Virus record (IMG/VR): IMGVR_UViG_3300028025_000648
Span: 1-57,549 of that record
Length of the DNA: 57,549 nucleotides
Reading direction: 5' to 3' (one strand)
DNA from: a virus
This document shows positions 23,533-50,839 of this stretch, in pieces. The translations under genes were made by a program, and so were the position numbers. The notes below the pieces were generated by a model. That model was not told the origin of the DNA. It made no database searches and was given only the letters and a program-made list of their open reading frames with translations. Each line of letters opens with the position of its first letter. Position 1 is the stretch's first letter.

Positions 23533-24216
23533 TTAAGCCTCTTCCAAGCCTACAGTAATATTCCATAGGTCATGGTTGCCTGCCCCACGCTTAACAACTG
23601 TATAATCAAAACTAGAAATATACATTTGAACAATCTGATTATATTGGTTTAACTTTGTGTGTGCGTTTTTATCAACTCCAAAGTTAATGTACTTATCGTA
23701 TGCTAAGAAAACCCAAAACGGACCCTTATGATCTTGATACCACTTAAGCATTTCTGCACCGCCTGCACCACCATCTGCAGTGTACTCTGTGTTTGGTAAA
23801 TAGTTTAAACCTTCGCCTGTTCGTTGTGAATATTTTTGAGCAAAGTCAGGATCTGCCAAACCAGTTGTCTGGTCAAAATCTGGATAACTCTGATGACCTC
23901 TAGATGGAACCATCTGCCAAGATGTACTAATATTAAGTTTGTCTGCTATGTGGTATGACCTCATAGTTCCATTAATCATTCTTTGTCTTTTTTCAATTCT
24001 TTGTGGGGTAACAGAAATATCAGACCTATTATGATCTGTAAGGATAATAAAAGAATTTGCAATCTGGTCTGGGGTTAAACCAGTTTTATCTGAATACTCC
24101 TCATAGCCAGAAGGGATATAACGGCCATTAGAGAGGACTCCAGGAGTATCTGACCAAAGCATACCTTGAGGTCTTCCAAACCTCTGTCTGCCCTGCATAT
24201 AGCCTAATGATGCCAT
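23533..24216 (-). CDS. Distal tail-type minor tail protein (227 aa)
   Basis: The 227-aa product directly follows the tape measure gene (one-base overlap), the usual place of the distal tail protein. It has a Gly/Arg-rich start (MQGRQRFGRPQGMLWSD) and a C-terminal domain (FWVFLAYDKYINFGVD, then QIVQMYISSFDYTVVKR) with the strand pattern of tail-tube-like folds. The assignment is by synteny; the sequence was not recognised from a named family. Confidence 0.65.
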   Translation of the reverse strand: MASLGYMQGRQRFGRPQGMLWSDTPGVLSNGRYIPSGYEEYSDKTGLTPDQIANSFIILTDHNRSDISVTPQRIEKRQRMINGTMRSYHIADKLNISTSWQMVPSRGHQSYPDFDQTTGLADPDFAQKYSQRTGEGLNYLPNTEYTADGGAGGAEMLKWYQDHKGPFWVFLAYDKYINFGVDKNAHTKLNQYNQIVQMYISSFDYTVVKRGAGNHDLWNITVGLEEA

Positions 24217-27200
24217 TATACGTTGGTTCTCCTAACTCTTTGTCCTTCAAGTTGCTTAATCTTCTTTATGACCGTATTGGCTACATCGTCTGCATCCATA
24301 TCGCTTCCATTGACACTAAGGCTTAGATTATAATTATACACGTCATTGCCCATTGGCGCACCCTTATTTATATTATTAAGGTTCTGTACCCCGAAGTTTT
24401 GAACAGCAGGTTTACTAATAATAAATTCTCCTGGTGTTAACATTGCTGGGATCTTGTCTGCCCCACGAGCAAATCCACCAACTTTAAAATATTGAGGAAC
24501 CATACCACCTGAATTTAGATATCCATATAGCGCTTTTCGTGCTGCAATAATGTCTGAAGAAGATGTGGTAGGGGCTTTTGTTGTTGTAGGTGCAGGAAGG
24601 GCAATCTTTGTTCCTGAGAAAATTGTATTTCCATCATTATATTTTGGATCAGTTGTAAGTTTAGGGTTTGCAGCAAGTAGGGCACTTACAGTTGTATCAT
24701 TTTTCTTAGCAATGCTAGAAAGTGTATCTCCAGACTTAACAACTACTGGAGCCTTTGTTGGTGCTGCAGTTGCCTTAGTAGCAGTTGCTCCAGGAGCAGA
24801 TGTAGGTGCATCAGTAGGGGCAGATGTAGGCTTTGCAGTTGATCCTGTTGGAGCATCTGTAGGTGCTTGTGTTGGATTAATGTCATTTTGAATTGCTGTA
24901 ACTGATCCTGGAACAGCCTTAGCATATGCATTAATCTTTCCAATGATCGTGTTCCACTCAGCAGTAATTGCTTGTGATGATGCAAGCAATCCACCAAGGG
25001 CTGTATCAAATGACTTAGAGGCCAAATCGCTTGCTGCAATCTTGGCTCTTACGCCTTCCCATGCTGCAGCGTTCTGTCCAAGTACTGTAATTTCTCCAAC
25101 AAGTTTATCAATTCGTGATTGGGCAAGAGTATTCTCATCGCCAAGTTTTGCAAGTCTATCTTGAATTGGCTTGATGGTAGTTGTGTTTAGTTTATAAAGT
25201 TCATCTTCTTTGACACGAATCTTTTCAAGTTCTGCAGTTCTTTCTTGTTCTAGTTTATAAATAGCATCTTGTGTAGCAAGAATATTCTTTTGGAACTGTA
25301 GACGAGCAGGATCATTTTCAAGTTTGTAAATCTTTTGTGAAATTTGATACTGCTCTTCTTCGATCTGAGTTCTGCTTAGACCAGTAACGCCACCACGCTG
25401 TCTTCCTAGTTCTGACTCTCTTGCTGCTGTAAGCATTTCTTGAGTTGAACGTGCTGCACTTTCTGCCTTGGCTGCTCTCATCTCTTGAATCATTGATGCT
25501 GCTTGAGAAATATCTCCTTGGCTTAATGCGTCTGCAAGCCCAATCTGTTGTTTTTGCTGGGCGAGAATATCATCATTAATCTGTGCAACCTTCTCTAAGG
25601 CTGCTGCCTGCTCATCATAACGCTTATTGATTGCTTCTGCAGCCTTGTCCATTACGACTAGATCTTGAGAAAGAATTCCTGATCTATCTTGAAGGTCTTG
25701 AATAGGGCGATTAAATTGTAGTTCAATCTTACGTTGAGTATCATCAATAGTCTTTTGATATGCTTCAATTTTTCTAGTAATATTAATTTCAACATTTCTT
25801 TGCATTACCTCAATAGCATCAGATATTCCTCTTGCCTGAGCCTCATATGGGACTAGTTGATCTTGCAACTGCTTCATTGTTGCTTCGTTGCTTCTTACAA
25901 GGTTAACATCTGCTGTACTTCTTGTATCAATGCCAGTTCTAATTAATTGCTCCTGTACCGCAAACATTTCATCAACAATCTCAAGGCCTGGGGCTGCTGC
26001 TGCAGCAAAGTCTCCTCTGTTGAAGTTAGTTTTAATTTCAATAAGTTTTTGCTTTTCAATTGAGTTAAGGTAATCAGCAATATCTTTTGCATCAAGTTTT
26101 CCATCTTCGAGATCTTTAACCATTGCCTTCATTAAAGCGGGATTGTCAAGTACTGCAGTCATTTGCTCTGCAGTAAACTTAAGATCCTTCATCTTCTTTA
26201 CAAGATCAGGCATTTGCTGAACTAATTTAAAGTCTTCTGCTTTATTAATTAAATCATTAGCAAGTGCTTGTTGTTCTAGTGCATCTGTTGCTGCTTTAAT
26301 ATCAGTAACAAATTGGGTCATCTCCTTTGAACCCTTTTGGCCAACAGCACCAGAAGCAATTGCAGCAGCGACTGCTTGATCTTCTACAACCTTAAGAGCA
26401 TCTGTTGCTGATAGACCAGAAGAAAGAAGCATGTTGAATGCTTTACTTTGTTCCTCAACTGTCTTAACCATTTCAACTTGAACTATCTGGAACTCTCCAA
26501 GTTGAGCCTCACGGAAGGTTTGCATAACAGCCTCACCCTCTTTAGTAAGACCAGTTATGTTTGCTTTGGTTCTTGGAAGTTTCTTACCCTTTGAATCTTT
26601 TTGTTTGTAGGTAAACATGTTCTTACCCTTTGGAAGACTAGCAAAAGCGGTAAAGTCTTCTGCAGACATGCTTGCAATTGCATCTCTAAATTCTTTTGGA
26701 ACATTGAACTTCAACATTCTTTGTTGTAGTCCGTCAAAAATACTAAACATTCTGGATGCATCTTTTTGTGCACCCTTACTATTAAATGCAGCCATCATAG
26801 ACTTTAGTGGTTGAGTTGCATCAAATGCTCCATCACGAACATTTTTAATTCTCATCGCTAGTGAGTCAAGGAAGTCTAGAGGGTTTGCACTAGCCCCACC
26901 ATCTTTGCCTCCACCGCCACCCTTTGGTTTTGCAGGTCCTGGAGGAGTTGCAGAATACTGTGGCTTTGTTGCTTCCATTGCAAGTTCATCAATGACTTGC
27001 TGTCTTCCTCCTGCAGTTGAGTAATAATCTGCAACTGTTCCCGCACCACCTGCTGCTGCAACTTTCTTTGCAATTCTTGCGTTAACTGCATCATCACTAA
27101 CGGTTGTATATGCTGAAACATAGGTTTGGATAGCAGTCTTTCTTACTGTCTCTGGAAGAGACATAAAATATTCCCAGTTTGCAGTAATGCCTGCCATAGC

Positions 27201-30200
27201 CTCTGCACTAAGACCTTTATTTTCTAACTGGATAGCCTTGGTTAATGGGTCTGGAACATTTTCAATTGCGTCTAACTGCTTTTGTAGCGCTCTTAACTTC
27301 TTCAAAGCAACTTCAGGATCGTTAGTTAAAAATACATTTATATCAAAGTCTTTTTGATCCATAGTTTGAAGTTGTGTCAAGGTTGCATTGATCTTGTCCA
27401 TATCCTTCGTTGTGCCTTTGGCTATTGCTATGGCTAACTTTTTCTTAAGTTCTGGTTTCTTTACTCCTCCAAGATTGTTAATAAGCATAGCAATCTTGTC
27501 TGCTCCGTGTGTTTTTACACCAATATCAAGAATCTTCGATAAACCTTTTTCATCACCTGTAAATGCTTCTAACATATCTGTCATAATCATTGGGTTGACT
27601 TGTCCAGAAGCCACAATTGTATTTATTGTTACCTCTAACTCTTTGCTCTTTAGGTCTGCAGTCTTTTCTAGCATAGTGCCAGTAAAGGCTTCCATTGCAG
27701 TGCCCTTATATTTTAATCTAACGGATTCCTTTAGCGAATCAAAGAATGCATCCTCTACAGCACTTCTTTGCTTAGCAACATTAAAAAGGTCAATCTGGTC
27801 TTGCAAAGTTTCTGCAATTTTGTCTCTAATCTTTTGAGCGCCTTCTTCTTGCTCACCTTGTGCAGTTTTAATCTGCTCATCTATTTGAGCCTGCTTGGAT
27901 TTTTCTGTAGTAATTAATCTTTGCGCTTGAAGTTCTTGTATTTTCTTTTCTGCCTGCAAATTGTATGCATCGAGTTGTGCTTGTGCAGATGCAACATTGT
28001 TAACTCCACTTGCAGCACCAAAAGATGCCATCTTTTCATTTTCTGTTTGACCAAAAAGTTCTCCAAAACTAAAGTCTGCACCTTCTGCAGTTCCAGCAAA
28101 ACCTCCACCTCCAGTGTCTCCAAAGAATGTATTTCCGTAAGCGGTTTGCATCTGGGCTAATTGATCTGTTGTTGCTGCAGCAATGTTTGCTTGTTCATCA
28201 ATAAGATTAATTCTTACGTTTAGAGGATCTTTAAGCAGATCTTCTCCATACGGACCGATAAGTCTATTTAACTGACCTTCAACCTTTGGTTGTAATGTTG
28301 TATCTCCAAACTTAATTGCCATCTGTCTTGCAACATCAGATGCCTGTACTGCAGTCATTACTCCATCAGATACTGCTAAGGCTAGGTTGCTGGCAAATTG
28401 TTTTGCTGCTTGATCTTTTCCAACTAACTTTATGTTTTCTGAGAAACCTTCAGCCATAGCCTTTCCAGGCTCACCCTCTAAGAAGGTTGTTCCGAACTGT
28501 TGTCCCTTACGATCATAGTTAGTTGTATATAGATCAGATACACCCTCTGACCTTCTACGGTCCATAATCTCACTGGCACCGACTTGTCCAGTCATCTCTC
28601 CAATAGACTTAAGAGTTGCTCCAGTCATCTGTGTCTTATTTGCTAATTCTGTTTGTGCCTTTGCTGCTTTTTCTGCAGATTTATTTAGCATATACAATCC
28701 ACCAGCAGTAGCAGCAATTGCTCCAGCGATCAAACCACCAGGCCCAAGACCTGCAATCATTGGTGCTAGTCCTGCAAGCATTGATGCTGCTCCTAGGGCT
28801 GCTGTTACTTGTGGAGGTGCTCCAGCCATTCCTGCAACCATTGTTGCTGTTCCTAGTGCACCTGACATCTTTCCAGAAACTTTGCCAACTTTTTCTTTTC
28901 TCATTCCACGCTTATATTTAGTATGAATTTTCTTAGTCATTGGTGCACCAGTTGCAGGGTCCATAATGATTTGACCATTCTCATCTACCGCAAATGTTGA
29001 TGCTTCTCTTAGTGCTGCGTTTTTATCAATAAGTGTATCTACCTGAGATTTTTCTATTGGTGGAACATTCTTTGCTATAGTGTCTACAACAACTCCACCT
29101 TCAGTTTTTTCAACATCATATTGAGATCCTGGAGTAATTGGTCCAGTAGATCTTGCACCACGAGAAGCCTTCTTTGCAGCGTGTTGAGCACTCTGTGTAG
29201 CAGTAGTCCCAAGTTTTGAACCTGCTGCTGCAACATCATCTTCTTTTGACTTCATTCCAACAACAAGGCCATCGCCAACTTCTTCACCAGTTTTGATTGT
29301 CTTCTTTGATGGTGATGCTGTACCAGCACCCTTATTTGCACCATCAACTGCTGCAACGCCTTCTCTGTATCCTGCTTCACGAGCATTTGTTTCAGACATT
29401 CCAACACCAGTAGATCTATTGATTGGACCTACTTGACCACTTGCACCACTTCCCTTTTTACGACCAGAGAACACTGTTTGATCAAGTGATGGATCTGCAG
29501 CGGTAAGAGCAGCACGAGTTTGCTTATTAACATTAACTCTTACCTCTGTTATTGCTGCTGCTGCTGTATCTAGAACTTCTTTAAGTCCTCCAGAAATTTT
29601 AGCCAATCCAGCACGTACGCTAGACTCAATTACTTCAAAGTCAGAATCTTTAATTTTCTTTCCTGGATTATTTTCTGCCCACAATCTTACCTGTTCTTGA
29701 ATTGCCAAGTCATATTGTGTAATCTCTGCTTCTAGCGCTTCAAAGTTTCCTCCACCAATCTTGATAGACTTTCTCCATTTTTCAGCACCCCGTTGAGCAA
29801 ACTCATTTAAAAACTCTGTAGGGTCTGCACCTTTTTGGTCTGGCTTCATTGACGTATTTATTCTTTGTGATAAATCATATCCAAGACCACTCTTTGGTCC
29901 AACCATAGGCATTGCAATTCCAGCCTTTTCTGCTGCTGCAACTAGTTGTGTTAATTCGGCAATGGTTTGTTCATTTTTAATTTGACCTGACTTAAGCAGT
30001 TCAAGTGCATTTACATTTTCTGATTCTGTTGCGTGTGCAAAAGTTGTTGCATAATTTTGATCTTTTTGAGGTGCATATGAACCAACAAAACTTCTTCCTG
30101 CTTCTGGATCGTATTCTCCAATTGTGCTAGTTAACTTTTCTTTTGTTAACTTAACTCCTGCTTGTCTAGCCTCTTCTGCCAAACCATCTACGAGTTCTCT

Positions 30201-32591
30201 AAATTCTCTTGTTAAATCTTCTCTTACCTTTTCAAGCCCTTGTGAAGTATCTGCTCCAACACGCTCTGCGTATCTAGTTAATTCTGCTGCAGTTAAGTTT
30301 GCAATTCTATCAAGTTCTTTTTGAAGTTGTGCATCAAAACTTGCTGTTGTAGAAACTCTTCCAGCAACCTGGCTTACATATCCACCCTCTTCAAAACCTT
30401 GTACCGTGCCAGACATTAATGCCTTGACTAGTTCTGGGTTGGACTTTACCGTTTCCTTTGTTAATACTACTTCTCCAGGGGTAAGCATTGCGGGTACTGT
30501 ATCTCCGCTACCGCTTCCTGGAACCAGTCCCCCTTGTGCAAACTTCTTTGGAGGAAGACCGCTTACTGCACCCTTTGCTCCTGGAATTGCATTAAATAAT
30601 CCTGGAGAAGATGCTGCCAATGCCTGTGCTTGAGTTGCTGCTCCTCTATAGGCATTACCAAGTGCTGTGGCTGCAGTTGCTTCAACAGCAAAGGTTTCAA
30701 TTAAGGCTTTATGCGATGTATGAAGTGCATTAGAAATTGCAAGGTTTTCTGTTTCAGCGTTTGTAAGATAATCAAATCCGCCACCAAGAACTTGGTTCTG
30801 TCCATTAAGTTTGGCAATTCCACCACGAAGAAGTGCAAAGAACTTAATTAAGTTAGCAACTCCGTTAGCAACAAGACCAACAGTCATTAAAAGGATTGGG
30901 CCAAGGCCTGCAACCACGCCAACAATTGTTGTAATAATCTTCTTTGTTCCATCACTTAGATTATTAAATCTTTCAAGAATTCCTCCAGCAAACTTAACAA
31001 TTGGTGTTAGGGCTTCAAGGAATGCTTTGCCTATTGGTACAAGTTGCAGTTTAAGATCTTCTATGGTTTTTTGGAACTTGATTCCAACTGCATCTTCTAC
31101 CTTGCCAAGTTCTCGTTCAGATAAGATTGCAAGTTCTTCTACTGATGCCCCTGCTAGACCAAGTGCTCTGGCTGCCTGAGAACTATCTTTTGTTACGTTT
31201 GAGAACAAAGTAGATAGACGAGCAAACTGGAACTTACCAAACAACTGTTCAATAGCACGAGCACGGTTAAGCGGATCAAGTGTATCAAGTGCATTTGCAA
31301 ACCCAATAACAGTACCCTTTAGGTTTCCTGCATTTGCTTCTACAATACCCTTGATATTAATACCAAACTCTGCAAGCATTTCGCTTGTCTTCTTTGTTGG
31401 GTTAATTAATGATGCAAGACCAGACTTAAGTGCGTTAGCACCTTCTGATGCATTGATTCCGCCTTCTTTCATTGCAGTCATAAAGAATGCAAGATCTTCT
31501 ACAGATCCACCTAGTTGCTGTACAACTGGTCCAGCCTTTGGAATAGCAATAGTTAAATCTTCAATAGAAAGGACTGTTTGGTTTTCTACTGCGTTGAGGA
31601 AGTTAATTTTTTGTGCTAATTGTTCTGCTGAAATGCCAAAAGCATTTTGCAAGGAGATTGTTGTCTCAAGAGCCTGTTGCTGTTCTACTTGTCCAAGCAC
31701 TGCAAGTTTTGTTGCAGAAGTTATTTGTGCTGTAAGATTGCTTCCTGTAAGACCCATTGCTGCAGCAGTTGCTGCCATCTCTACAGTTTCTGTAGCAGAA
31801 ACTCCATACTTAGTAAACTCTTTAGCCAGTCTTTGAATATCAGCAACAGCCTTATTTGTGGCATCACCACTTGTTGTCATATTTCCATATACTCTAGTAA
31901 ACTTAAGGACTGCTTCTTCCATCTCTCGGAATACCTTAGATGCAGCAGCGCCAAGAGTAACCAGAGGAATGGTCAAACCAACCATAAGTTGGCGACCAGC
32001 CCACTGTGTATTCTTACCAAAGTTAAGTAGGTTTGTAGATCCTTGTTTTAGTAATTGATTTAAGAACTGCTGTCTTTGTGCAGCCATCTGCATTCGTGTT
32101 GCATAACTACTAAATTGATTGCCAGCCATATCCAATGACTTTGGCATTACCTTCAAAGTTTTTACAAAACCATCTTGTGCTTGTGTGAGTTGGATGTATT
32201 GCGACTGCACCATCTTAACTCTGTCTTTCATAGCCCTTCCGAGAATTTGCTTCTCTTGGGCAAACATATTCTTAAAGACACCTGAATTTTGGGTAGCAGC
32301 AGCAGCAGTAAATCTAGCATACTGCCTCATACTTAGTTTATTTTTTTCAAGCGCTGTAGTAAATGCTGAGGTGCTAGATGCTACAGTTTCCTGACTTGCT
32401 ACAAACTTACCAGTCGCATTGATCGACTGCATAAGGTTTGCAGTAAGAGATTTTTGAGCATCAGCAGCCGTAGCATTTCCAACAGTTAAGGCTTGATTAA
32501 ACTTACTTAAGCCTGCTTGTAGTCGACGTAAACTTGCCAGCGCATCTGTTGTATCCAGATTTACGTGAATATTGGCATTTACGTCTTCCAA
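24216..32591 (-). CDS. Tape measure protein with C-terminal LysM domain (2791 aa)
   Basis: At 2791 aa this is the longest gene. It sets tail length and is ejected into the cell. It has a helical N-terminus, the conserved phage tail core (ASKVFREMEEAVLKFTRVYG), hydrophobic segments (IITTIVGVVAGLGPILLM), a Gly/Ala-rich membrane-like stretch (MLAGLAPMIAGLGPGGLIAG) and long coiled coils near the end. The motif PAMLTPGE occurs twice, near residues 700 and 2716. A Pro/Thr/Ala linker leads to a LysM domain at about 2617-2666. At roughly 0.15 nm per residue the tail could approach 400 nm if little is removed. It follows the two chaperone genes as expected. Confidence 0.95.
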   Translation of the reverse strand: MEDVNANIHVNLDTTDALASLRRLQAGLSKFNQALTVGNATAADAQKSLTANLMQSINATGKFVASQETVASSTSAFTTALEKNKLSMRQYARFTAAAATQNSGVFKNMFAQEKQILGRAMKDRVKMVQSQYIQLTQAQDGFVKTLKVMPKSLDMAGNQFSSYATRMQMAAQRQQFLNQLLKQGSTNLLNFGKNTQWAGRQLMVGLTIPLVTLGAAASKVFREMEEAVLKFTRVYGNMTTSGDATNKAVADIQRLAKEFTKYGVSATETVEMAATAAAMGLTGSNLTAQITSATKLAVLGQVEQQQALETTISLQNAFGISAEQLAQKINFLNAVENQTVLSIEDLTIAIPKAGPVVQQLGGSVEDLAFFMTAMKEGGINASEGANALKSGLASLINPTKKTSEMLAEFGINIKGIVEANAGNLKGTVIGFANALDTLDPLNRARAIEQLFGKFQFARLSTLFSNVTKDSSQAARALGLAGASVEELAILSERELGKVEDAVGIKFQKTIEDLKLQLVPIGKAFLEALTPIVKFAGGILERFNNLSDGTKKIITTIVGVVAGLGPILLMTVGLVANGVANLIKFFALLRGGIAKLNGQNQVLGGGFDYLTNAETENLAISNALHTSHKALIETFAVEATAATALGNAYRGAATQAQALAASSPGLFNAIPGAKGAVSGLPPKKFAQGGLVPGSGSGDTVPAMLTPGEVVLTKETVKSNPELVKALMSGTVQGFEEGGYVSQVAGRVSTTASFDAQLQKELDRIANLTAAELTRYAERVGADTSQGLEKVREDLTREFRELVDGLAEEARQAGVKLTKEKLTSTIGEYDPEAGRSFVGSYAPQKDQNYATTFAHATESENVNALELLKSGQIKNEQTIAELTQLVAAAEKAGIAMPMVGPKSGLGYDLSQRINTSMKPDQKGADPTEFLNEFAQRGAEKWRKSIKIGGGNFEALEAEITQYDLAIQEQVRLWAENNPGKKIKDSDFEVIESSVRAGLAKISGGLKEVLDTAAAAITEVRVNVNKQTRAALTAADPSLDQTVFSGRKKGSGASGQVGPINRSTGVGMSETNAREAGYREGVAAVDGANKGAGTASPSKKTIKTGEEVGDGLVVGMKSKEDDVAAAGSKLGTTATQSAQHAAKKASRGARSTGPITPGSQYDVEKTEGGVVVDTIAKNVPPIEKSQVDTLIDKNAALREASTFAVDENGQIIMDPATGAPMTKKIHTKYKRGMRKEKVGKVSGKMSGALGTATMVAGMAGAPPQVTAALGAASMLAGLAPMIAGLGPGGLIAGAIAATAGGLYMLNKSAEKAAKAQTELANKTQMTGATLKSIGEMTGQVGASEIMDRRRSEGVSDLYTTNYDRKGQQFGTTFLEGEPGKAMAEGFSENIKLVGKDQAAKQFASNLALAVSDGVMTAVQASDVARQMAIKFGDTTLQPKVEGQLNRLIGPYGEDLLKDPLNVRINLIDEQANIAAATTDQLAQMQTAYGNTFFGDTGGGGFAGTAEGADFSFGELFGQTENEKMASFGAASGVNNVASAQAQLDAYNLQAEKKIQELQAQRLITTEKSKQAQIDEQIKTAQGEQEEGAQKIRDKIAETLQDQIDLFNVAKQRSAVEDAFFDSLKESVRLKYKGTAMEAFTGTMLEKTADLKSKELEVTINTIVASGQVNPMIMTDMLEAFTGDEKGLSKILDIGVKTHGADKIAMLINNLGGVKKPELKKKLAIAIAKGTTKDMDKINATLTQLQTMDQKDFDINVFLTNDPEVALKKLRALQKQLDAIENVPDPLTKAIQLENKGLSAEAMAGITANWEYFMSLPETVRKTAIQTYVSAYTTVSDDAVNARIAKKVAAAGGAGTVADYYSTAGGRQQVIDELAMEATKPQYSATPPGPAKPKGGGGGKDGGASANPLDFLDSLAMRIKNVRDGAFDATQPLKSMMAAFNSKGAQKDASRMFSIFDGLQQRMLKFNVPKEFRDAIASMSAEDFTAFASLPKGKNMFTYKQKDSKGKKLPRTKANITGLTKEGEAVMQTFREAQLGEFQIVQVEMVKTVEEQSKAFNMLLSSGLSATDALKVVEDQAVAAAIASGAVGQKGSKEMTQFVTDIKAATDALEQQALANDLINKAEDFKLVQQMPDLVKKMKDLKFTAEQMTAVLDNPALMKAMVKDLEDGKLDAKDIADYLNSIEKQKLIEIKTNFNRGDFAAAAAPGLEIVDEMFAVQEQLIRTGIDTRSTADVNLVRSNEATMKQLQDQLVPYEAQARGISDAIEVMQRNVEINITRKIEAYQKTIDDTQRKIELQFNRPIQDLQDRSGILSQDLVVMDKAAEAINKRYDEQAAALEKVAQINDDILAQQKQQIGLADALSQGDISQAASMIQEMRAAKAESAARSTQEMLTAARESELGRQRGGVTGLSRTQIEEEQYQISQKIYKLENDPARLQFQKNILATQDAIYKLEQERTAELEKIRVKEDELYKLNTTTIKPIQDRLAKLGDENTLAQSRIDKLVGEITVLGQNAAAWEGVRAKIAASDLASKSFDTALGGLLASSQAITAEWNTIIGKINAYAKAVPGSVTAIQNDINPTQAPTDAPTGSTAKPTSAPTDAPTSAPGATATKATAAPTKAPVVVKSGDTLSSIAKKNDTTVSALLAANPKLTTDPKYNDGNTIFSGTKIALPAPTTTKAPTTSSSDIIAARKALYGYLNSGGMVPQYFKVGGFARGADKIPAMLTPGEFIISKPAVQNFGVQNLNNINKGAPMGNDVYNYNLSLSVNGSDMDADDVANTVIKKIKQLEGQRVRRTNV
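24594..24743 (-). other. LysM peptidoglycan-binding domain within tape measure
   Basis: Residues about 2617-2666 read VVKSGDTLSSIAKKNDTTVS and continue with LLAANPKL and an IFSGTKIALP end, a canonical LysM. It is flanked by TAAPTKAP and TTTKAPTT linkers. LysM binds N-acetylglucosamine-containing glycans such as peptidoglycan. Confidence 0.85.
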
Positions 32592-37537: not shown

Positions 37538-38680
37538 TTAGGAATCTGATGCTGCATCCGCATAAGCGACTGCATCGAGTTCTTCCCACTGTACGCCAAA
37601 ACGAACGAATACTGTGTATTCGATTGTGTCCTTCTTAGCAACGTATTCACGATTTACTGTGATATCTCTCTGGAATCCCCATACACGGTTCTGTGGGAAT
37701 GTCAAGTCGACATATCCTGCAGGGTAGTAAGGAACTTCCATTACATCAATTCCGAGAACACGAGTTGTACGTGCTCCACCGAATGTCTGTGCGTTACCAT
37801 CAAGGTATGACTGACGGTTTGCTTCTGTGCCTGGACCCTTGTTAACAAAGGCTTCTGCGATTGCATCTGCAAGTGTACCGTTATTCTTAACGATTCCCTG
37901 GAATGCATCTGTACCAGCATAGAATTTTAGACCAGCCTTGAGTGCACGATACTTACGTGGCAAAGCCAAGATGATATCCTGCATCGCTGCTGTTGTCCAG
38001 TTGTCATCAGATACGGTTACAACTGCTTCGTGAGCATCTGAACCATCTGTGACCTTGTTGACAAATCCATCCATGATTGAAAGGAAGTTGCCTGTTGCAC
38101 CATCGCCATTAATAGCAAGGTCTTCGATATCGTTAGCGAAAGCGTTGGTCATCAAGCGAACTAGATGATCCTCAAGTGCTCCACCTTCAATATTATCTTC
38201 AAGTGCTTCTGATGAAACTTCCCAGTCAAGACGAATCTTCTTTGTAGTCAATTCAACCTTGCTGAATGTTGCACCAGCGTTTGTGAAATCTGGCTGTGCC
38301 TGAGCAGCAGCACGGATTACACGCTCTCCTACGTTAACTTTCTCAAGTTCCATAGTGTTAGCACGCATTGTTACTTTACGACCATCCTTGGCGAGAACTG
38401 TTGCATCCCACACGTAGTCGATGAAGCGACGAGCCTGCTCTGGTGCAAGAATACCACCTGGTGTTCCAGTTGGATTTACAGCGTTTGCTCCAGAAGTTGT
38501 TCCGAAGTTCGCTGTAGCGATGTTGCCAAGCGAAGCAGCGGGTGTAAGATTACCGTTAGCATCTGTGGTTGTTGCACCACCGATTGCTCCAGACGCAAAA
38601 GAACCATCGCCGTTGTGGGCGTGTGATTCAGTTGGGGATCCAGGATAATTCTTTACGATCTCTGTATTTTGTTCCGACAT
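37538..38680 (-). CDS. Major capsid protein (HK97 fold)
   Basis: The 380-aa product shows the HK97-fold pattern: an extended N-terminal arm (about 1-80, Gly/Ala/Thr-rich), a spine-helix region (VSSEALEDNIEGGALEDHLV, then NAFANDIEDLAINGDG) and a C-terminal beta-rich P-domain end (RDITVNREYVAKKDTIEYTV). It builds the icosahedral head. I chose ATG 38680, 8 bases after AGGAGG; a GTG at 38689 is in frame. Strong translation signals and a dedicated terminator fit high expression. The protease and scaffold are encoded just upstream. Confidence 0.94.
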   Translation of the reverse strand: MSEQNTEIVKNYPGSPTESHAHNGDGSFASGAIGGATTTDANGNLTPAASLGNIATANFGTTSGANAVNPTGTPGGILAPEQARRFIDYVWDATVLAKDGRKVTMRANTMELEKVNVGERVIRAAAQAQPDFTNAGATFSKVELTTKKIRLDWEVSSEALEDNIEGGALEDHLVRLMTNAFANDIEDLAINGDGATGNFLSIMDGFVNKVTDGSDAHEAVVTVSDDNWTTAAMQDIILALPRKYRALKAGLKFYAGTDAFQGIVKNNGTLADAIAEAFVNKGPGTEANRQSYLDGNAQTFGGARTTRVLGIDVMEVPYYPAGYVDLTFPQNRVWGFQRDITVNREYVAKKDTIEYTVFVRFGVQWEELDAVAYADAASDS

Positions 38681-38708: not shown

Positions 38709-39281
38709 TTAGTTTAATAGGTCGGTAGATGTGAGGAAACGACCGCCCCATAGGGATTTCTGAACCTTTACAGGCTCAAACTGCACGATCTCGCCTAGAT
38801 CGCCAGACTTGCGGAAAGCGGTGTCTGCAACTACGGCATCTACTCGCTTGCCAAACTCATTAAAGTTACCCTTGATGTTGTTAACCTCACCTGTTACATT
38901 ATCAAGAGACTTCGTTACTGCTGATACCTGCTCATGAAGAGACTTAACGGTTGCAGCAAGATCGCCAAAGGCATTATTAAGAGAATCCTTAATGTCTGCA
39001 ATTGCCTTAGCAACTTCATCATTAATTGTTTCAACAACATCTGCTGCTGCAGGTGCTGCTTCTTCTGGCTTCTCTTCTTCTACTGCTGCTTCTGCAACAG
39101 GAGAATCTGCACCACCATCGACTGTATCTGCTACAGGTGCCTCTTCAGCAACTGGGGCTTCTTCAGCGACTGCAGGTGCATCTGTTGCTACTGCAACTTC
39201 TTCAACTGCTGGCTGTGCCTCTGGAGTGACCTCTACATTTTCAACTACTGCATCTACTGATGCCTCTGTTGCTTCTGTCAT
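38709..39281 (-). CDS. Nested scaffold protein from internal in-frame start
   Basis: Inside the protease gene, ATG 39281 is in frame and has GGAGG (39290-39294) 8 bases upstream. It would give a separate 190-aa protein that begins MTEATEASVDAVVENVEV: an acidic Ala/Glu/Pro-rich part, then a coiled coil (LNNAFGDLAATVKSLHEQ) and a basic end, which is the usual build of a scaffold. The arrangement copies lambda C/Nu3, where the scaffold is made from an internal start of the protease gene. The start is read from sequence; use in vivo is inferred. Confidence 0.65.
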   Translation of the reverse strand: MTEATEASVDAVVENVEVTPEAQPAVEEVAVATDAPAVAEEAPVAEEAPVADTVDGGADSPVAEAAVEEEKPEEAAPAAADVVETINDEVAKAIADIKDSLNNAFGDLAATVKSLHEQVSAVTKSLDNVTGEVNNIKGNFNEFGKRVDAVVADTAFRKSGDLGEIVQFEPVKVQKSLWGGRFLTSTDLLN

Positions 39282-40040
39282 TGGTATTACCTCCTTGTTA
39301 ATCTTAGAAGTGTTAATGCCTTTAGCACTATCGACTAAGAATTTTATCATTTCTGCTTTTTCACTATCGTTTTTTTCAACGAAACCGATGTTTTGCATTT
39401 GCTTTTGTGTTGATGGGCTAACCTGTGATTCTGAATCTGAAACCATTACAAGGCCAGTATCTGCATCCCAAAAAATATTTTCTGTCTCAACCTTTGAGAG
39501 CATTCCATCAATAACATTATGTCCGTCTTGCTTCTCAATAGAAACAATATTTGCAAATTGATTTGCTGGACTATCAACAAGTGACAACTCAAAAAGTTCA
39601 TACTCTTTGATAACACGAATGCTCTTGTCCATCTCTTCATTAAATGCATCATCCCAAGACTTAATGTTTCCACCAATTGAGAAACCTGTGTATGTTCCGT
39701 CTAGAACTTTTTCCCAAGCATTCTGTGCACCCTTAGAAACGTATGCTGATACATAAACTCCAGAGTAAAACTTCTTTGTGTTTGGATCAAAGTAACGATC
39801 TTCTTTAAATGAAACAATCTTGCCAACTGCTGAAGGCTGATGCATCTCACGAAGGTTACCACGGAAATTCTTAAAAGCCTCAAGGCTTGCTTTAGTATCA
39901 ACAATGTCATCTTGCTTGTCAATATTATCTAAAGTTGCAAAACCAGAAACCATTCTGCGCTCTACATCTACTTTGCCAATAGGCATTGATAGACGTACGT
40001 TGTCGCCTGAAGTCGTCCAGTGTGCTTTGTTTATTAACAT
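38709..40040 (-). CDS. Prohead protease fused to scaffold domain
   Basis: The 443-aa product has an N-terminal prohead protease domain (about 1-175) with the likely catalytic H67 (REMHQPS) and S121 (YTGFSIGGN), of the HK97 prohead or XkdF-like type. A linker leads to an acidic, Ala/Glu-rich region and a coiled coil, which is the scaffold. The protease removes scaffold and capsid arms during maturation. The start ATG 40040 has no Shine-Dalgarno sequence and sits 9 bases after a TATAAT, so its mRNA is probably near-leaderless. It lies between portal and capsid genes, as usual. Confidence 0.9.
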   Translation of the reverse strand: MLINKAHWTTSGDNVRLSMPIGKVDVERRMVSGFATLDNIDKQDDIVDTKASLEAFKNFRGNLREMHQPSAVGKIVSFKEDRYFDPNTKKFYSGVYVSAYVSKGAQNAWEKVLDGTYTGFSIGGNIKSWDDAFNEEMDKSIRVIKEYELFELSLVDSPANQFANIVSIEKQDGHNVIDGMLSKVETENIFWDADTGLVMVSDSESQVSPSTQKQMQNIGFVEKNDSEKAEMIKFLVDSAKGINTSKINKEVIPMTEATEASVDAVVENVEVTPEAQPAVEEVAVATDAPAVAEEAPVAEEAPVADTVDGGADSPVAEAAVEEEKPEEAAPAAADVVETINDEVAKAIADIKDSLNNAFGDLAATVKSLHEQVSAVTKSLDNVTGEVNNIKGNFNEFGKRVDAVVADTAFRKSGDLGEIVQFEPVKVQKSLWGGRFLTSTDLLN

Positions 40041-40049
40041 ATCGTATCT

Positions 40050-40058
40050 ATTATACCA
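40050..40058 (-). promoter_or_regulatory. Extended -10 promoter for a near-leaderless start
   Basis: TGGTATAAT on the minus strand ends 9 bases before ATG 40040. No Shine-Dalgarno lies between. A perfect inverted repeat (AAACAT, 6 bases, ATGTTT) at 40058-40075 adjoins it. Confidence 0.65.
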
Positions 40059-40075
40059 AACATTTATGTATGTTT
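40058..40075. repeat. Perfect inverted repeat at the protease promoter
   Basis: AAACAT and ATGTTT are separated by 6 bases and overlap the TG of the extended -10. It could be an operator; it is AT-rich and short, so chance is possible. Confidence 0.4.
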
Positions 40076-40080
40076 CTCAA

Positions 40081-41673
40081 CTATTGAGATGCTCTTCCTT
40101 CTCCTTGTGCATTTCTTCCAGATATGGTTGTTGGGCTATCAGATTGGTTGTTCTGTCTTTCTGTATCCCGTGCTCTATTTCCAGAAGCATTTGCATTAGC
40201 GTCTGCTGCTGCTCTTGCCGTCATCTCTAGAGGAGCGTCTCCACCATCTCTTTGAGGAAGATCAAGAATCTCACGAGCCTCGTTAGGAAGCATGATCTGA
40301 GACTTGACATATTTTTCAAGAATCTGGGCTTGTGCAATCTCGTCTGTGAGGGTAAGTTCATTAAACTTAAGTTCAAGGATATCTGTCTTCTCACGAATAA
40401 TCTTGCTGATTACCTTTTCAAGGTGATGCTGTGCTGGACGAGCAACCTGCTCTTTAAAGGTGCGGTCCTGAGATAGTGCAGCAGCCAAACCAGAATCTGC
40501 TCCACCAAGTTTAGAGATAGGGACCTGATGAGCAATAAGAATATCATCACGGTTCTGCTTACGATACTCTTTAAATGAGCCATCTTGGATACCGTTTTCA
40601 ATTGGCTCCATCTTAAACTCGACCTTGTTCTGGTCGGTGTCTCCAGGAAGCGGGATGTATAGAGTTCTGTGTGACTGAGACTTAAGCCCAGTCTGAAGGA
40701 ATCTGAACATCTTGTCTTCTGAATCACCAGAAAGTTGTGCACCCTTTAGGGTAATGATGTATCTTGGAACTGCTTTGTTTTCAAAGTAGTCAATATTATA
40801 TTGTGAAGCAAGTTGATCTCCGATAAGAGATGGCATAGCAGCCACGATATCTGGAACTCCATAGAATGTATTTAAGGGTGAGTATTCCTTAATATGAATA
40901 ATCTCGTTAGGTCTTGGATCGTTGGTTACTGGATTTTGGTTGTTTGCCCCAAAGTTTCTAAAGTAAACAACATACTGACCAATGATTTGCAAGAAACCAT
41001 CGTGAAGTCTACGAACACGAACAGTGGTTGCTGGGATATGTCCGATATATCCGATTTGTCCATCTGTTGTTCTTCCGACTTCTAGGAAACCGTTGCCTGT
41101 AGCCTCAAGGTCTGTATAAACCTTTTCCATTGTCTTAGTAAAACTATCATCATCGTTAAGACTTTCAAGCCAGTCACGAAGTTCGATTTTCATTCTTTCA
41201 ATGCGCTTACGGGCACGCATAACCTTTTCTGGATCTTCTGAAGTTTCAAATCTTAAAGATGTACTATCTGTAATATCAAATCTATATCCAAGTCCTACAA
41301 TATTTTCTACCTTTGCATCAATTGCTGCGTGGTTAGCAAAAGATGTGTCATAGAAGTTAGCCAACTCGTACATATTGTATGGAGGTGTAATTACATCAAA
41401 TAAACCATAACCATTACGATATACAGTTCCAGGATTGATCTGCTTAGATGATGAATCTGCTCCAGATGGCATTGCATTTGCTGCATCAAGATATGCTGGA
41501 TCTCCTACTGCTTTGTTTGCTAGTCTTCCAGTTCTTCTTTTGAAGTTTGTATTGATACCGCTTAAATCTTTTAACTCTTCCCAGGACTTGTTGAATGGAT
41601 CTTGACTCTTGAAGATGCTATCTTCTTTTTCCTGTGTATTTAACTTTGCCTGAATTGGATACTCGTTAGTCAT
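40081..41673 (-). CDS. Portal protein
   Basis: The 530-aa product has typical portal features: a wing/stem core with YNMYELANFYDTSFANHAAI near residue 100, EIIHIKEYSPLNTFYGVPDI in the middle (the phage portal signature region), and a long C-terminal helical part (DEIAQAQILEKYVKSQIMLP) ending in a Gln/Asn/Arg-rich tail. It forms the dodecameric ring for DNA entry and exit. I chose ATG 41673, which overlaps the upstream stop as ATGACTAA; in-frame starts also exist at 41682 and 41727. It precedes protease and capsid as normal. Confidence 0.92.
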   Translation of the reverse strand: MTNEYPIQAKLNTQEKEDSIFKSQDPFNKSWEELKDLSGINTNFKRRTGRLANKAVGDPAYLDAANAMPSGADSSSKQINPGTVYRNGYGLFDVITPPYNMYELANFYDTSFANHAAIDAKVENIVGLGYRFDITDSTSLRFETSEDPEKVMRARKRIERMKIELRDWLESLNDDDSFTKTMEKVYTDLEATGNGFLEVGRTTDGQIGYIGHIPATTVRVRRLHDGFLQIIGQYVVYFRNFGANNQNPVTNDPRPNEIIHIKEYSPLNTFYGVPDIVAAMPSLIGDQLASQYNIDYFENKAVPRYIITLKGAQLSGDSEDKMFRFLQTGLKSQSHRTLYIPLPGDTDQNKVEFKMEPIENGIQDGSFKEYRKQNRDDILIAHQVPISKLGGADSGLAAALSQDRTFKEQVARPAQHHLEKVISKIIREKTDILELKFNELTLTDEIAQAQILEKYVKSQIMLPNEAREILDLPQRDGGDAPLEMTARAAADANANASGNRARDTERQNNQSDSPTTISGRNAQGEGRASQ

Positions 41674-42052
41674 CGCTTCCATACCTATCATAAGTTTGTT
41701 GTGCTGCATGCCATGCGCCCAAGTCATTCATTGACGGGATAAGACCTTGCTGCATTCTATCTTTTTGCTCAGAATATTCTTCTTCTGAAATTCTAGTTAA
41801 TCCAGGAACAAACACAACCGATCCATCCCCTGGATCTCCGTAGTGTCTTGCTGCTGTTTTTAGTTCTGCAATCTTAGAAATATCTCCACGCATTGACTCA
41901 ATGTTTAGAACAGAACCTGTTCCATCTGTGAAGTACTTTCCGTCTGCTTTCTTATATACGTATAGACCCCAGTCATAATGCTTCTCGATGACTTTACGTC
42001 TAACATTGCTTACAATTGGTTTACCAGTTTTGGGGTTAATTAAAGAATCCAT
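41666..42052 (-). CDS. Hypothetical protein upstream of the portal (128 aa)
   Basis: The 128-aa product (from ATG 42052) has a basic N-terminus (KPIVSNVRRKVIEKHYDWGL) followed by a compact domain (GTGSVLNIESMRGD) and a polar helix (SEEEYSEQKDRMQQGL). I do not recognise it. ATG 42052 is 7 bases after TATACT and has no Shine-Dalgarno, like three other starts here; ATG 42058 is one base after the hexamer and therefore less likely. Translationally coupled to the portal, so a portal- or packaging-related role is possible. Confidence 0.7.
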   Translation of the reverse strand: MDSLINPKTGKPIVSNVRRKVIEKHYDWGLYVYKKADGKYFTDGTGSVLNIESMRGDISKIAELKTAARHYGDPGDGSVVFVPGLTRISEEEYSEQKDRMQQGLIPSMNDLGAWHAAQQTYDRYGSDD

Positions 42053-45733: not shown

Positions 45734-47764
45734 TTATAAAACTTTTAACTCACAAGCATCTGTTGTGCAGTAGGCTTCGCCCTGAGCATCAAGATTTTCG
45801 ACTCCATCGTAGATAGCATTCCAATTAATCTTAGCAATCTTTCCAATATAGTCGTTGTATTCATCCTTGGTAATCTGAGTATAAGGCTGCTGAGGATATG
45901 TCTTATTGCCCATTGGAAGGAATGAGACTGCCTTTAACTGTCCCTCGTACATATGAAGAGCAGGAGCAATAAACTTAGACTCTGTTTCCTTGTCAAATGA
46001 TAGCGTTACAGAAACACCATTATCTGACCAGTACTTCTGAGCAGTTGCTGCCAAACCAATCTTCTCAAACATACTTACATCCTTCTCAGAACGTGGGTGT
46101 CCTGAGTGTACTGGGAAGTAGACTACTGATGTATTTGCTGATACAAGGTCTGGCTCAATCTTATACCCCGCTGCTTTAAACAAATGAAGCATTGGGTCTG
46201 TCTCACCAAAACGAATAGCACGAAGGAAGAACTCTCCTCCAGGACCCCAGTGAACTCCAGGGGTAGCACCAGAAAGAAGTGATACAGATCCTGATGGCTT
46301 AACTGTTGTTACACGAATTGATTCACGAACGCATAACCATTCTGAGTACTGCTTGTCATAGTGACGAATCTTGTTGTACCCTTCGTCCATCCACTCACGA
46401 GTAGTTGGCAAACCATTGGTATCTGCAAATGATGCAATGCCTGTAAGAGATGTACCAATACGGCGGTTGCGCTGCATAATACCGTTTGTAACTTGCCAGT
46501 GTGTTGGCATAAGAGTTACAGTCTTTCCATAAAGATAAGCAAACTTCAGTGTCTTGAGAAAGTCCTCCTTGGATTCGTGTCGATTAAGATGTACCTCAAC
46601 GAGAGTACAAAGTTCGTACGACTCCAATGGCTGCTCTGCACACGGATTAAAGCCCATCACACGATAGTCCTTACCATCTGCTGGATCTGCAAGACGACCA
46701 AAGTTTCTAGCAACATCAAGCCAGATAAAGCCTGGCTCTCCGTTATCAGAAATCACATCAACATAGTCTTCATATTTTGTTCCGACTGTTGCTGAAATTG
46801 AATTGTTTGACATCCACGCCCATCCTGGGTTCTCTGGATCAAACGAGTTGCGCTCTGGAAATGCTTCTGCATTTTTAAGATTCATAAAGTCAACATCGTC
46901 TGCTGCTCCAAGTGCAAGGGTAGCAGAACGACGAACATTTCCTGATACTACGCAAGTACCAATAAGATTAACAATGTCTACAATAGCACGAGCATCAAGT
47001 AGTTCTCCTGCTCTAGAACCGATAACTTTGCGAATGCGTGTATGTAGATCAATAAGTGGTGCTGGACCGCTGGCGACCCCACCAAAGCCCTTAATAGGTG
47101 CTCCTAGAGGACGTATGAGATCATAGTTGAACTCCTGAACTGGCTGGTTCTGACGAAGGAATGAATTAATAAGTAATCTAACAGACTCTACCCAGCCCTC
47201 ACGAGTATCTGGGATTTCATAGATAGAGGCTGGTTCTGTTGGAGCATAGATAGGCATAGCCTTTTCAGCACCAACTGTATCAAACCCTACTCCGATACCA
47301 AGCATCAAGGCATCCATTGTCCAGGCAAATAGAGCACCTGGGTCATTACGATCAAGGTCACGAGTAGAAACCATTGCACAGTTTTGAAGGGAAGCAGAGT
47401 TACGTTTCTCCATAGTCATAGGAGTTCCAAATGCCCAGAGTCCACGACCTGGAGGTGTCCACTTCAATTCAAACATTCTCTGGAATGCTTCCTGAGCAGA
47501 CTTCTGAGCCTTATTATCATTCCATGGTAGACGATTCTCTTTAGCGTGGTTCTTCTGAACTGAGTACATACCCTCGATTACACGACGACAAACCTCATAC
47601 CACTTTTCCTTTGTACCGTCTTCCTTTACACGAGAATAAGTTCTAATAAATGTGATTTCTCCAAGAGAGTTGCCTCCTGCATCTGTGAATCCAAATGGTG
47701 CTGGGACTTCTGAATATTTTGTAATGAAGTCATCAACTAGACGAAACGAGAAAAAATCTGACAT
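45734..47764 (-). CDS. nrdJ: Adenosylcobalamin-dependent ribonucleoside-triphosphate reductase (class II, monomeric)
   Basis: The 676-aa product matches the monomeric B12-dependent reductase. The key residues align with the Lactobacillus enzyme: redox C129 (LQNCAMVS) and C386 (YELCTLVE), N373, C375 and E377 in FNPCAEQPL (C375 the radical cysteine), and the C-terminal shuttle pair C666 and C671 (YCTTDACEL). It reduces ribonucleoside triphosphates to dNTPs with coenzyme B12, without oxygen and without a second subunit, supplying DNA precursors. Single-gene coding is compact for a phage. It is expressed from its own promoter (47828), after a terminator, with a 63-base leader containing a hairpin. 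Confidence 0.96.
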   Translation of the reverse strand: MSDFFSFRLVDDFITKYSEVPAPFGFTDAGGNSLGEITFIRTYSRVKEDGTKEKWYEVCRRVIEGMYSVQKNHAKENRLPWNDNKAQKSAQEAFQRMFELKWTPPGRGLWAFGTPMTMEKRNSASLQNCAMVSTRDLDRNDPGALFAWTMDALMLGIGVGFDTVGAEKAMPIYAPTEPASIYEIPDTREGWVESVRLLINSFLRQNQPVQEFNYDLIRPLGAPIKGFGGVASGPAPLIDLHTRIRKVIGSRAGELLDARAIVDIVNLIGTCVVSGNVRRSATLALGAADDVDFMNLKNAEAFPERNSFDPENPGWAWMSNNSISATVGTKYEDYVDVISDNGEPGFIWLDVARNFGRLADPADGKDYRVMGFNPCAEQPLESYELCTLVEVHLNRHESKEDFLKTLKFAYLYGKTVTLMPTHWQVTNGIMQRNRRIGTSLTGIASFADTNGLPTTREWMDEGYNKIRHYDKQYSEWLCVRESIRVTTVKPSGSVSLLSGATPGVHWGPGGEFFLRAIRFGETDPMLHLFKAAGYKIEPDLVSANTSVVYFPVHSGHPRSEKDVSMFEKIGLAATAQKYWSDNGVSVTLSFDKETESKFIAPALHMYEGQLKAVSFLPMGNKTYPQQPYTQITKDEYNDYIGKIAKINWNAIYDGVENLDAQGEAYCTTDACELKVL

Positions 47765-47895: not shown

Positions 47896-47932
47896 ACTTT
47901 AAGTTTATTAAAGTAGTCTCAATATTTGAGAA

Positions 47933-50594: not shown

Positions 50595-50822
50595 TTACAT
50601 TCCTCCTAGTAAAAATGTTGTTGGAAGTGGATCTGTAACTACCGTCGCCCATTCCACGCCTGCTGTTTGTGACGAGTTGGCCTTAAGAAAAGTTCCGTTA
50701 GCACCAACAGTTACTTTTGCTGCTGTATCTGCAGCGGTACCTGCAATTAAATCACCCTTGGCATCTATAACCTTTGGCTTAGTACCCTGGGAGTTATCGG
50801 CTAGTTCTCTGGCTCTTGTCAT
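50595..50822 (-). CDS. KGD-type tail segment protein, copy 1
   Basis: The 75-aa product carries KVIDAKGDLIAGTAADTAAK, then VGANGTFLKANSSQTAGVEW, a motif found in many phage tail fibres. It is encoded as a free-standing segment rather than as part of a long fibre. Paralogues lie at 52425 and 57013. ATG 50822 is 8 bases after TATAAT with no Shine-Dalgarno, predicting a leaderless mRNA. The unit may attach to or extend a fibre. Confidence 0.7.
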   Translation of the reverse strand: MTRARELADNSQGTKPKVIDAKGDLIAGTAADTAAKVTVGANGTFLKANSSQTAGVEWATVVTDPLPTTFLLGGM

Positions 50823-50830
50823 GATATCTT

Positions 50831-50839
50831 ATTATACCA
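50831..50839 (-). promoter_or_regulatory. Extended -10 promoter, leaderless start
   Basis: TGGTATAAT on the minus strand ends 8 bases before ATG 50822. The TAA inside the hexamer is the stop codon of the 50832 gene. Confidence 0.65.

Follow-up and report, generated by a model that had tools for sequence, protein, structure and literature searches.

The window analysed here, all 57,549 nucleotides (nt) of the IMG/VR virus record IMGVR_UViG_3300028025_000648, carries on its minus strand a head maturation protease gene that very probably encodes two nested in-frame proteins: a long form, in which the protease is followed by a scaffold part, and a scaffold of 190 amino acids (aa) alone. The candidate start of the short form is an ATG inside the gene, preceded by an eight-base Shine-Dalgarno (SD) sequence. 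The features involved are the following.

38709–40040, minus strand: full-length head maturation protease-scaffold open reading frame (ORF), 443 aa (Pfam and PHROG profiles)
39321–40040, minus strand: protease part, residues 1–240 (structure model, BFVD matches and invariant residues)
39289–39296, minus strand: internal SD sequence AAGGAGGT (read directly; conservation)
39279–39281, minus strand: internal start codon ATG, residue 254, in frame with the 443-aa ORF
38709–39281, minus strand: predicted separate scaffold protein, 190 aa (composition, predicted helix and C-terminal motif)

A preliminary description of this DNA had placed GGAGG at 39290–39294, eight bases away from an ATG at 39281 that is in frame, and direct reading agrees exactly: on the minus strand, GGAGG occupies 39294–39290, the spacer 39289–39282 (8 nt) and the ATG 39281–39279. 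We scanned the 48 minus-strand ORFs of at least 100 aa in the window (14,479 internal codons), counting the bases that match AAGGAGGTGA at 5–11 nt from an in-frame ATG, GTG or TTG. The AAGGAGGT site is the sole internal in-frame site of these ORFs with at least 6 matching bases; 11 further internal sites match 5 bases, and at the genes' own starts an 8-base site is found in the capsid gene alone. On the other side, 1565 of 5000 synonymous codon shuffles of the gene (31%) also produced an internal match of at least 7 bases, which speaks for a chance effect, i.e., a Lys-Glu-Val before Met that merely resembles a ribosome site. Thus, the window alone is weak evidence, and conservation decides.

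The internal site was sought between codons 225 and 310 of 172 full relatives, corresponding to 131 distinct coding sequences (CDS). The relatives comprise eight full-length named phages (Wofford, Wakanda, Samisti12, StarPlatinum and BillNye of the Stanwilliamsviridae, and the Rhodococcus phages Trina, Weasels2 and Dorin), and further loci include a second freshwater-type clade (L108–L173), Wakanda-like contigs (L094–L106) and two loci of metagenome-assembled genomes (MAGs; L174 and L175). A ribosome site followed by ATG or GTG is present at the domain boundary in 172/172. The match covers 8 bases in 166 of them, 7 in 2 and 6 in 4, and the start codon is ATG in 97 and GTG in 75, at a spacing of 7, 8 or 10 nt. 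All 80 IMG/VR relatives returned (68–92% identity) have AGGAGGT-N7-ATG in frame; a loss of the internal site was looked for among these close relatives and was not found. In seven remote S78 proteases (L088, L089 and L176–L180) the 8-base site was not found, and four of the seven have a 6- or 7-base match (codons 11, 12 and 364, 663, and 164). One full relative with the internal site, L175, comes from a contig whose title names a cyanobacterium MAG, a host assignment that may be a binning error.

The codon phase of GGAGG varies among the full relatives: it is phase 2 (AAG GAG GTN) in 82 and phase 0 (GGA GGT) in 89, and the remaining one has GGAGT. The motif encodes Lys-Glu-Val in the window's clade and Gly-Gly elsewhere. 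Since the nucleotides are conserved while the amino acids differ between phases, selection acts on the nucleotides. The occurrence of the site in every full relative and in two codon phases, together with synonymous codons that are invariant at the site in two clades, leaves the chance explanation a negligible probability. The same conservation supports the earlier proposal of an internal scaffold start of the lambda C/Nu3 type.

For the 63 distinct CDS of the window's clade, synonymous diversity averages 0.382 in codons 1–226 and 0.090 in codons 227–253; the corresponding values of the portal and capsid genes are 0.348 and 0.295. Across the 66 loci of the second freshwater clade (47 distinct), it is 0.000 in the 12 codons ending at the internal start, compared with 0.29–0.50 per 12-codon block in codons 1–228. 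GGAGG-N8-ATG, the motif proposed earlier for a conservation check, is kept in the 80 close relatives, but the conserved element is larger, with synonymous change suppressed over about 80 nt before the start. As regards the start codon, in the second clade it is the sole column among 38 with a Val majority to be restricted to start codons (GTG 41, ATG 6), and in 14 Streptomyces-type sequences it is the sole start-codon-only column among 30 (GTG 13, ATG 1). In the window's clade, the internal start is Met in 63/63.

Ribosomes pause at SD-like sequences, and the internal site could thus be read as a programmed pause that helps the protease to fold, with no second protein; its position directly after the last folded protease element of the structure model would suit this idea. 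However, pausing would not require a start codon, and one is kept at 7, 8 or 10 nt in 172/172 relatives, and in the second clade it alternates between GTG and ATG and is never GTA, GTC or GTT. We consider this explanation very improbable.

The scaffold might also be expressed from an internal promoter of its own and not from the long-form mRNA, a transcriptional nesting like that of herpesvirus UL26/UL26.5. In these herpesvirus genes the transcripts are separate, and the S78 family is related to the herpes protease fold; the window gene differs in having an internal ribosome site. Just upstream of this site, 61 of 64 distinct sequences of the window's clade carry TTGATA-N15-18-TACAAT, the sole promoter form sought. 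The pattern is absent from the window itself, L001 and L174 and occurs in 0/67 distinct sequences from outside the window's clade, and the SD and the start remain in all the sequences that are without it. Moreover, an internal promoter would supplement the internal start and not replace it, and transcriptional nesting in its stead appears unlikely.

The domain layout is predicted from profiles and models. Peptidase_S78 (PF04586) scores 25.9 bits on the 443-aa ORF in Pfam, where the cut-off is 21. A score of 388 bits over residues 2–440 is reached by phrog_9427, “head maturation protease”; the Pfam matches at E ≤ 0.01 list S78 and S78_2, and S49 is absent from them. H67 and S121, which we take to be the catalytic residues of the S78-type protease part, are invariant in an alignment of 33 sequences. 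AlphaFold2 models the whole protein poorly, with a predicted local distance difference test (pLDDT) value of 57.9. In this model the last fairly confident protease element stops at residue 239, residues 243–337 have pLDDT below 50, a helix spans 333–411, and the tail is disordered. The predicted layout after the internal start is an acidic disordered linker and then a long helix. The internal start had been described as lying at the exact boundary between protease and scaffold: this is approximately right (the protease ends at 239 and the start is residue 254), but the helix begins only at about 333, after the linker.

Modelled alone, residues 1–240 reach a pLDDT of 71. Among the predicted structures of BFVD, this model matches a PBSX XkdF-like protein at E 7.8e-24, and matches to named prohead proteases follow from E 4.8e-8; the TM-scores are modest, at 0.32–0.54. 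A PDB fold search at E ≤ 0.001 gave no match for either the whole-protein or the protease-only model, and a profile search of solved structures returned mostly coiled-coil proteins (spike, haemagglutinin), with no protease among the 60 matches listed. The 190-aa scaffold part is acidic (39 D+E vs 13 K+R) and has a conserved TAxxKSGDLG...WGGRFL motif at its C-terminal end. Used as sole query, it retrieved no gene other than this one, in 2 phage records; a relative with a separate scaffold gene was not found. Zinc-ribbon-like cysteines (FWC...C..C; 39375–39473) were observed after the protease in the Streptomyces and Rhodococcus relatives and are missing from the three window-clade sequences in the same alignment.

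Several observations weigh against a nested scaffold, or against reading the whole codon pattern as its trace. Within the window's clade, synonymous diversity is lowish throughout the scaffold part (0.214 in codons 255–400) and in codons 401–443 (38712–38840) it is as low as before the internal start (0.091). One of the 47 Val columns of this clade, located in the low-diversity 3′ zone, is GTG in 63/63. As low diversity is not confined to the start zone, part of the suppression may have another cause; for codons 401–443 this may be an RNA element that precedes the capsid gene. Furthermore, the scaffold role is proposed from position, composition and the predicted helix, not from homology to a tested scaffold, and a scaffold gene could possibly lie elsewhere in the genome.

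Codon usage, compared as a sign of higher expression of the scaffold part, points neither way: the codon adaptation index relative to the capsid gene is 0.58 for the protease, 0.66 for codons 255–400 and 0.43 for codons 401–443. The portal values of this comparison (GC3 0.55) seemed at odds with the sequence and were left out.

Two further features concern the start of the long form.

40050–40058, minus strand: extended -10 promoter element TGGTATAAT, ending 9 nt before the full-length ATG
40075–40089, minus strand: inverted repeat TCTCA-N5-TGAGA spanning the portal stop codon, possible operator

The full-length protein had been described as starting without a ribosome site, and none is found at the ATG 40040. 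Among 72 distinct upstream regions, 70 have no SD match of at least 4 bases and 2 have a 4-base match. A TAnnnT hexamer lies 6–10 nt upstream of the full-length ATG in 72/72, and in 33 it is TATAAT; at random positions of the same loci, TAnnnT is found in 10% and a match of at least 5/6 in 2.5%. For Trina, Wofford and StarPlatinum, a second, homologous ATG was used in place of the annotated one. In Mycobacterium tuberculosis, a leaderless transcript is defined by a transcription start at most 5 bp from the codon, with TANNNT centred 7–12 bp further upstream (PMC3898074; here and below, sources given by PMC number are cited from excerpts). By this definition, the -10 placement and the lack of an SD fit a leaderless arrangement, and, judging from the sequence, the full-length protease start is probably leaderless. 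Leaderless initiation is doubtful in three phages, Samisti12, Wofford and StarPlatinum: their -10 hexamers match weakly (TAAGAT, TACCAT), and their protease start overlaps or abuts the upstream gene.

The preliminary description had also assumed that a leaderless start would lower the long form relative to the scaffold. This assumption is unsafe: leaderless and leadered expression are similar in Mycobacterium smegmatis, leaderless expression is about 10% in Escherichia coli, and initiation may be less efficient at codons that lie a little way into the transcript (PMC4633059). These figures may not fit the host of the window; the named relatives infect Streptomyces and Rhodococcus.

Extended -10 sites of the form TGNTATAAT (TGnTATAAT) number 10 on the minus strand of the window vs 4.15 expected. 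Two of them lie 8–9 nt before an ATG without SD, namely those of the protease and of a 75-aa ORF; the sites next nearest to a start, 15 and 17 nt away from it, are distant enough for an SD to fit in between, and one is present. Several extended -10 sites are located 15–59 nt upstream of genes with an SD, which suggests many short transcripts in the window. The 75-aa ORF (50822–50595, in the region 50595–50831) starts with MTRARELADNSQ; TGGTATAAT ends 8 nt before its ATG, no SD is present, and by these sequence features it is a probable second leaderless gene. The inverted repeat TCTCA-N5-TGAGA is about 19 nt upstream of the protease -10 hexamer. In the window's clade, every distinct upstream region but that of L174 keeps it (42 of 43), compared with 0/45 of the others. 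Two further exact copies are found at 39485–39499 and 47917–47931, and with one mismatch allowed the repeat is no commoner in the whole window than in shuffles.

From the nested arrangement we infer that both proteins are produced, as follows. The 443-aa long form, composed of S78-type protease, linker and scaffold, would be translated from an mRNA with its 5′ end at or near its own ATG, a leaderless mRNA made by a promoter in the gap between portal and protease. The short form (190 aa) would be translated from the internal AAGGAGGT and ATG, present on any mRNA through the region. Many short scaffold chains and few long ones would co-assemble via the shared C-terminal part, by which the protease would be carried into the prohead and would later remove the scaffold. 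More tentatively, and as a possibility that we do not favour, phages could set the protease:scaffold ratio by different kinds of start, with the long form made only from leaderless mRNA, the scaffold from every transcript (portal read-through included), and a hairpin opening or regulating the internal site in some clades. If this were true, conditions favouring leaderless mRNAs would directly change head assembly.

Nested proteases and scaffolds are a known kind of arrangement, of which the window gene is a variant set apart by its S78 protease, by a long start that is probably leaderless and by conservation in shifted codon phases. The conservation of nucleotides across these phases is strong enough to predict a protein, a hitherto unannotated scaffold that we propose for the Stanwilliamsviridae, for Rhodococcus phages (e.g., Trina) and for many freshwater metagenomic phages, and a leaderless and an SD start within one gene may set a structural ratio. 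The lambda protease is ClpP/S49-like, and a leaderless long start is not known for lambda C; the Mu I/Z protease family also differs from the S78 of the window gene. Like the window gene, lambda C/Nu3 has a protease with a C-terminal scaffold part (PMC8508860; Nu3, PMC3224144), and the lambda and MD8 proteases have been linked to a ClpP template (PMC8508860). Lambda C differs from the window gene, whose protease is S78-type; the window gene would function like lambda C but, with S78 and no S49 in Pfam, is not classed as its homologue.

In Mu I/Z and in gene 27 of the Pseudomonas Mu-like phage PaMx73, the scaffold has an in-frame internal start in the protease gene, with an SD about 8–9 nt upstream, and a leaderless start of the long form is not mentioned in the excerpts of this source (PMC4378225). 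The scaffold of herpesvirus UL26/UL26.5 (UL80a/UL80.5 in human cytomegalovirus) binds the capsid protein by its last 25 residues (PMC7920273), a tail to which the conserved C-terminal motif of the window's scaffold may be likened by analogy.

The “capsid maturation protease” genes of the Stanwilliamsviridae and of Trina, Weasels2 and Dorin are homologues with the same gene order and the same internal site, and most of these Streptomyces and Rhodococcus homologues have the same kind of -10 placement as the window. They differ in that the SD is in the other codon phase, and the eight records annotate one protease only. The titles and abstract openings of the literature matches listed hold no description of an internal start in the window's phage family, and the available parts of the literature on Streptomyces satellite helpers, Rhodococcus phages, cluster O mycobacteriophages and the D3 capsid do not mention one. 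In the cluster O mycobacteriophages, leaderless mRNAs were predicted at other phage promoters, as far as the excerpts of that work go.

The neighbouring genes of the protease are the following.

40081–41727, minus strand: portal protein gene, directly upstream of the protease gene (PF04860, 102 bits)
37538–38680, minus strand: likely major capsid protein gene, ATG 38680, with a AGGAGGTG site (phrog_1623)

The latter ORF scores 247 bits with phrog_1623, a virion structural protein, and the homologous position is annotated as major capsid protein in the named relatives. The interval from portal to capsid holds the protease gene alone in the window, Weasels2 and Dorin; in the six remaining named relatives, one small hypothetical or membrane protein is also encoded between the portal and capsid genes.

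A hairpin is predicted upstream of the internal site.

39303–39339, minus strand: predicted hairpin, core UAGUGCU-AAA-GGCAUUA at 39330–39314, lower stem CUUAG/CUAAG

In 42-nt windows, the hairpin, with its centre some 40 nt upstream of the internal start, has a mean of −13.9 kcal/mol in the window's clade and −9.2 elsewhere, and the flanking windows, at −60 and −20, have −2.6 and −3.3, and −4.4 and −3.4 kcal/mol. The region of the internal start is rather open (−4.0 kcal/mol in the window's clade, −2.3 elsewhere). Downstream of the start, the windows reach comparable energies (to −10.3 and −9.4 kcal/mol), so the hairpin of the second clade does not stand out by its energy alone. In the window's clade, TAGTGCTAAAGGCATTA is kept in 19/20 variants; in the second clade, GCCTG...CAGGC is kept in 21/21 variants, around loops that are 17 or 20 nt long and occur in 11 different forms.

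The share of synonymous shuffles that reach the best 36-nt fold is 18% for the window, 12.5% for L001, 3–6% for L003, L174, L113, L118 and L146, 1.5% for L175 and 5% for Trina. It is 16.5% for Wofford, 36% for Dorin, 40–53% for three Wakanda-type sequences, 60.5% for Weasels2 and 88% for Samisti12. A 106-nt stretch of the window folds no better than shuffles (z 0.03). The hairpin was dropped as a family-wide element, most of the Streptomyces and Rhodococcus sequences tested being without hairpin signal. The hairpin, which is conserved with different sequences in two freshwater clades and is of moderate strength there when compared with shuffles, can be taken as a lead.

Elsewhere in the window, a B12-dependent ribonucleotide reductase gene was observed at 45734–47764 (Pfam RNR_Alpha and RNR-II insertion domain). 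A very long tape measure protein (2791 aa) is encoded at 24216–32591, with an endolysin/transglycosylase-like stretch near residues 2590–2679.
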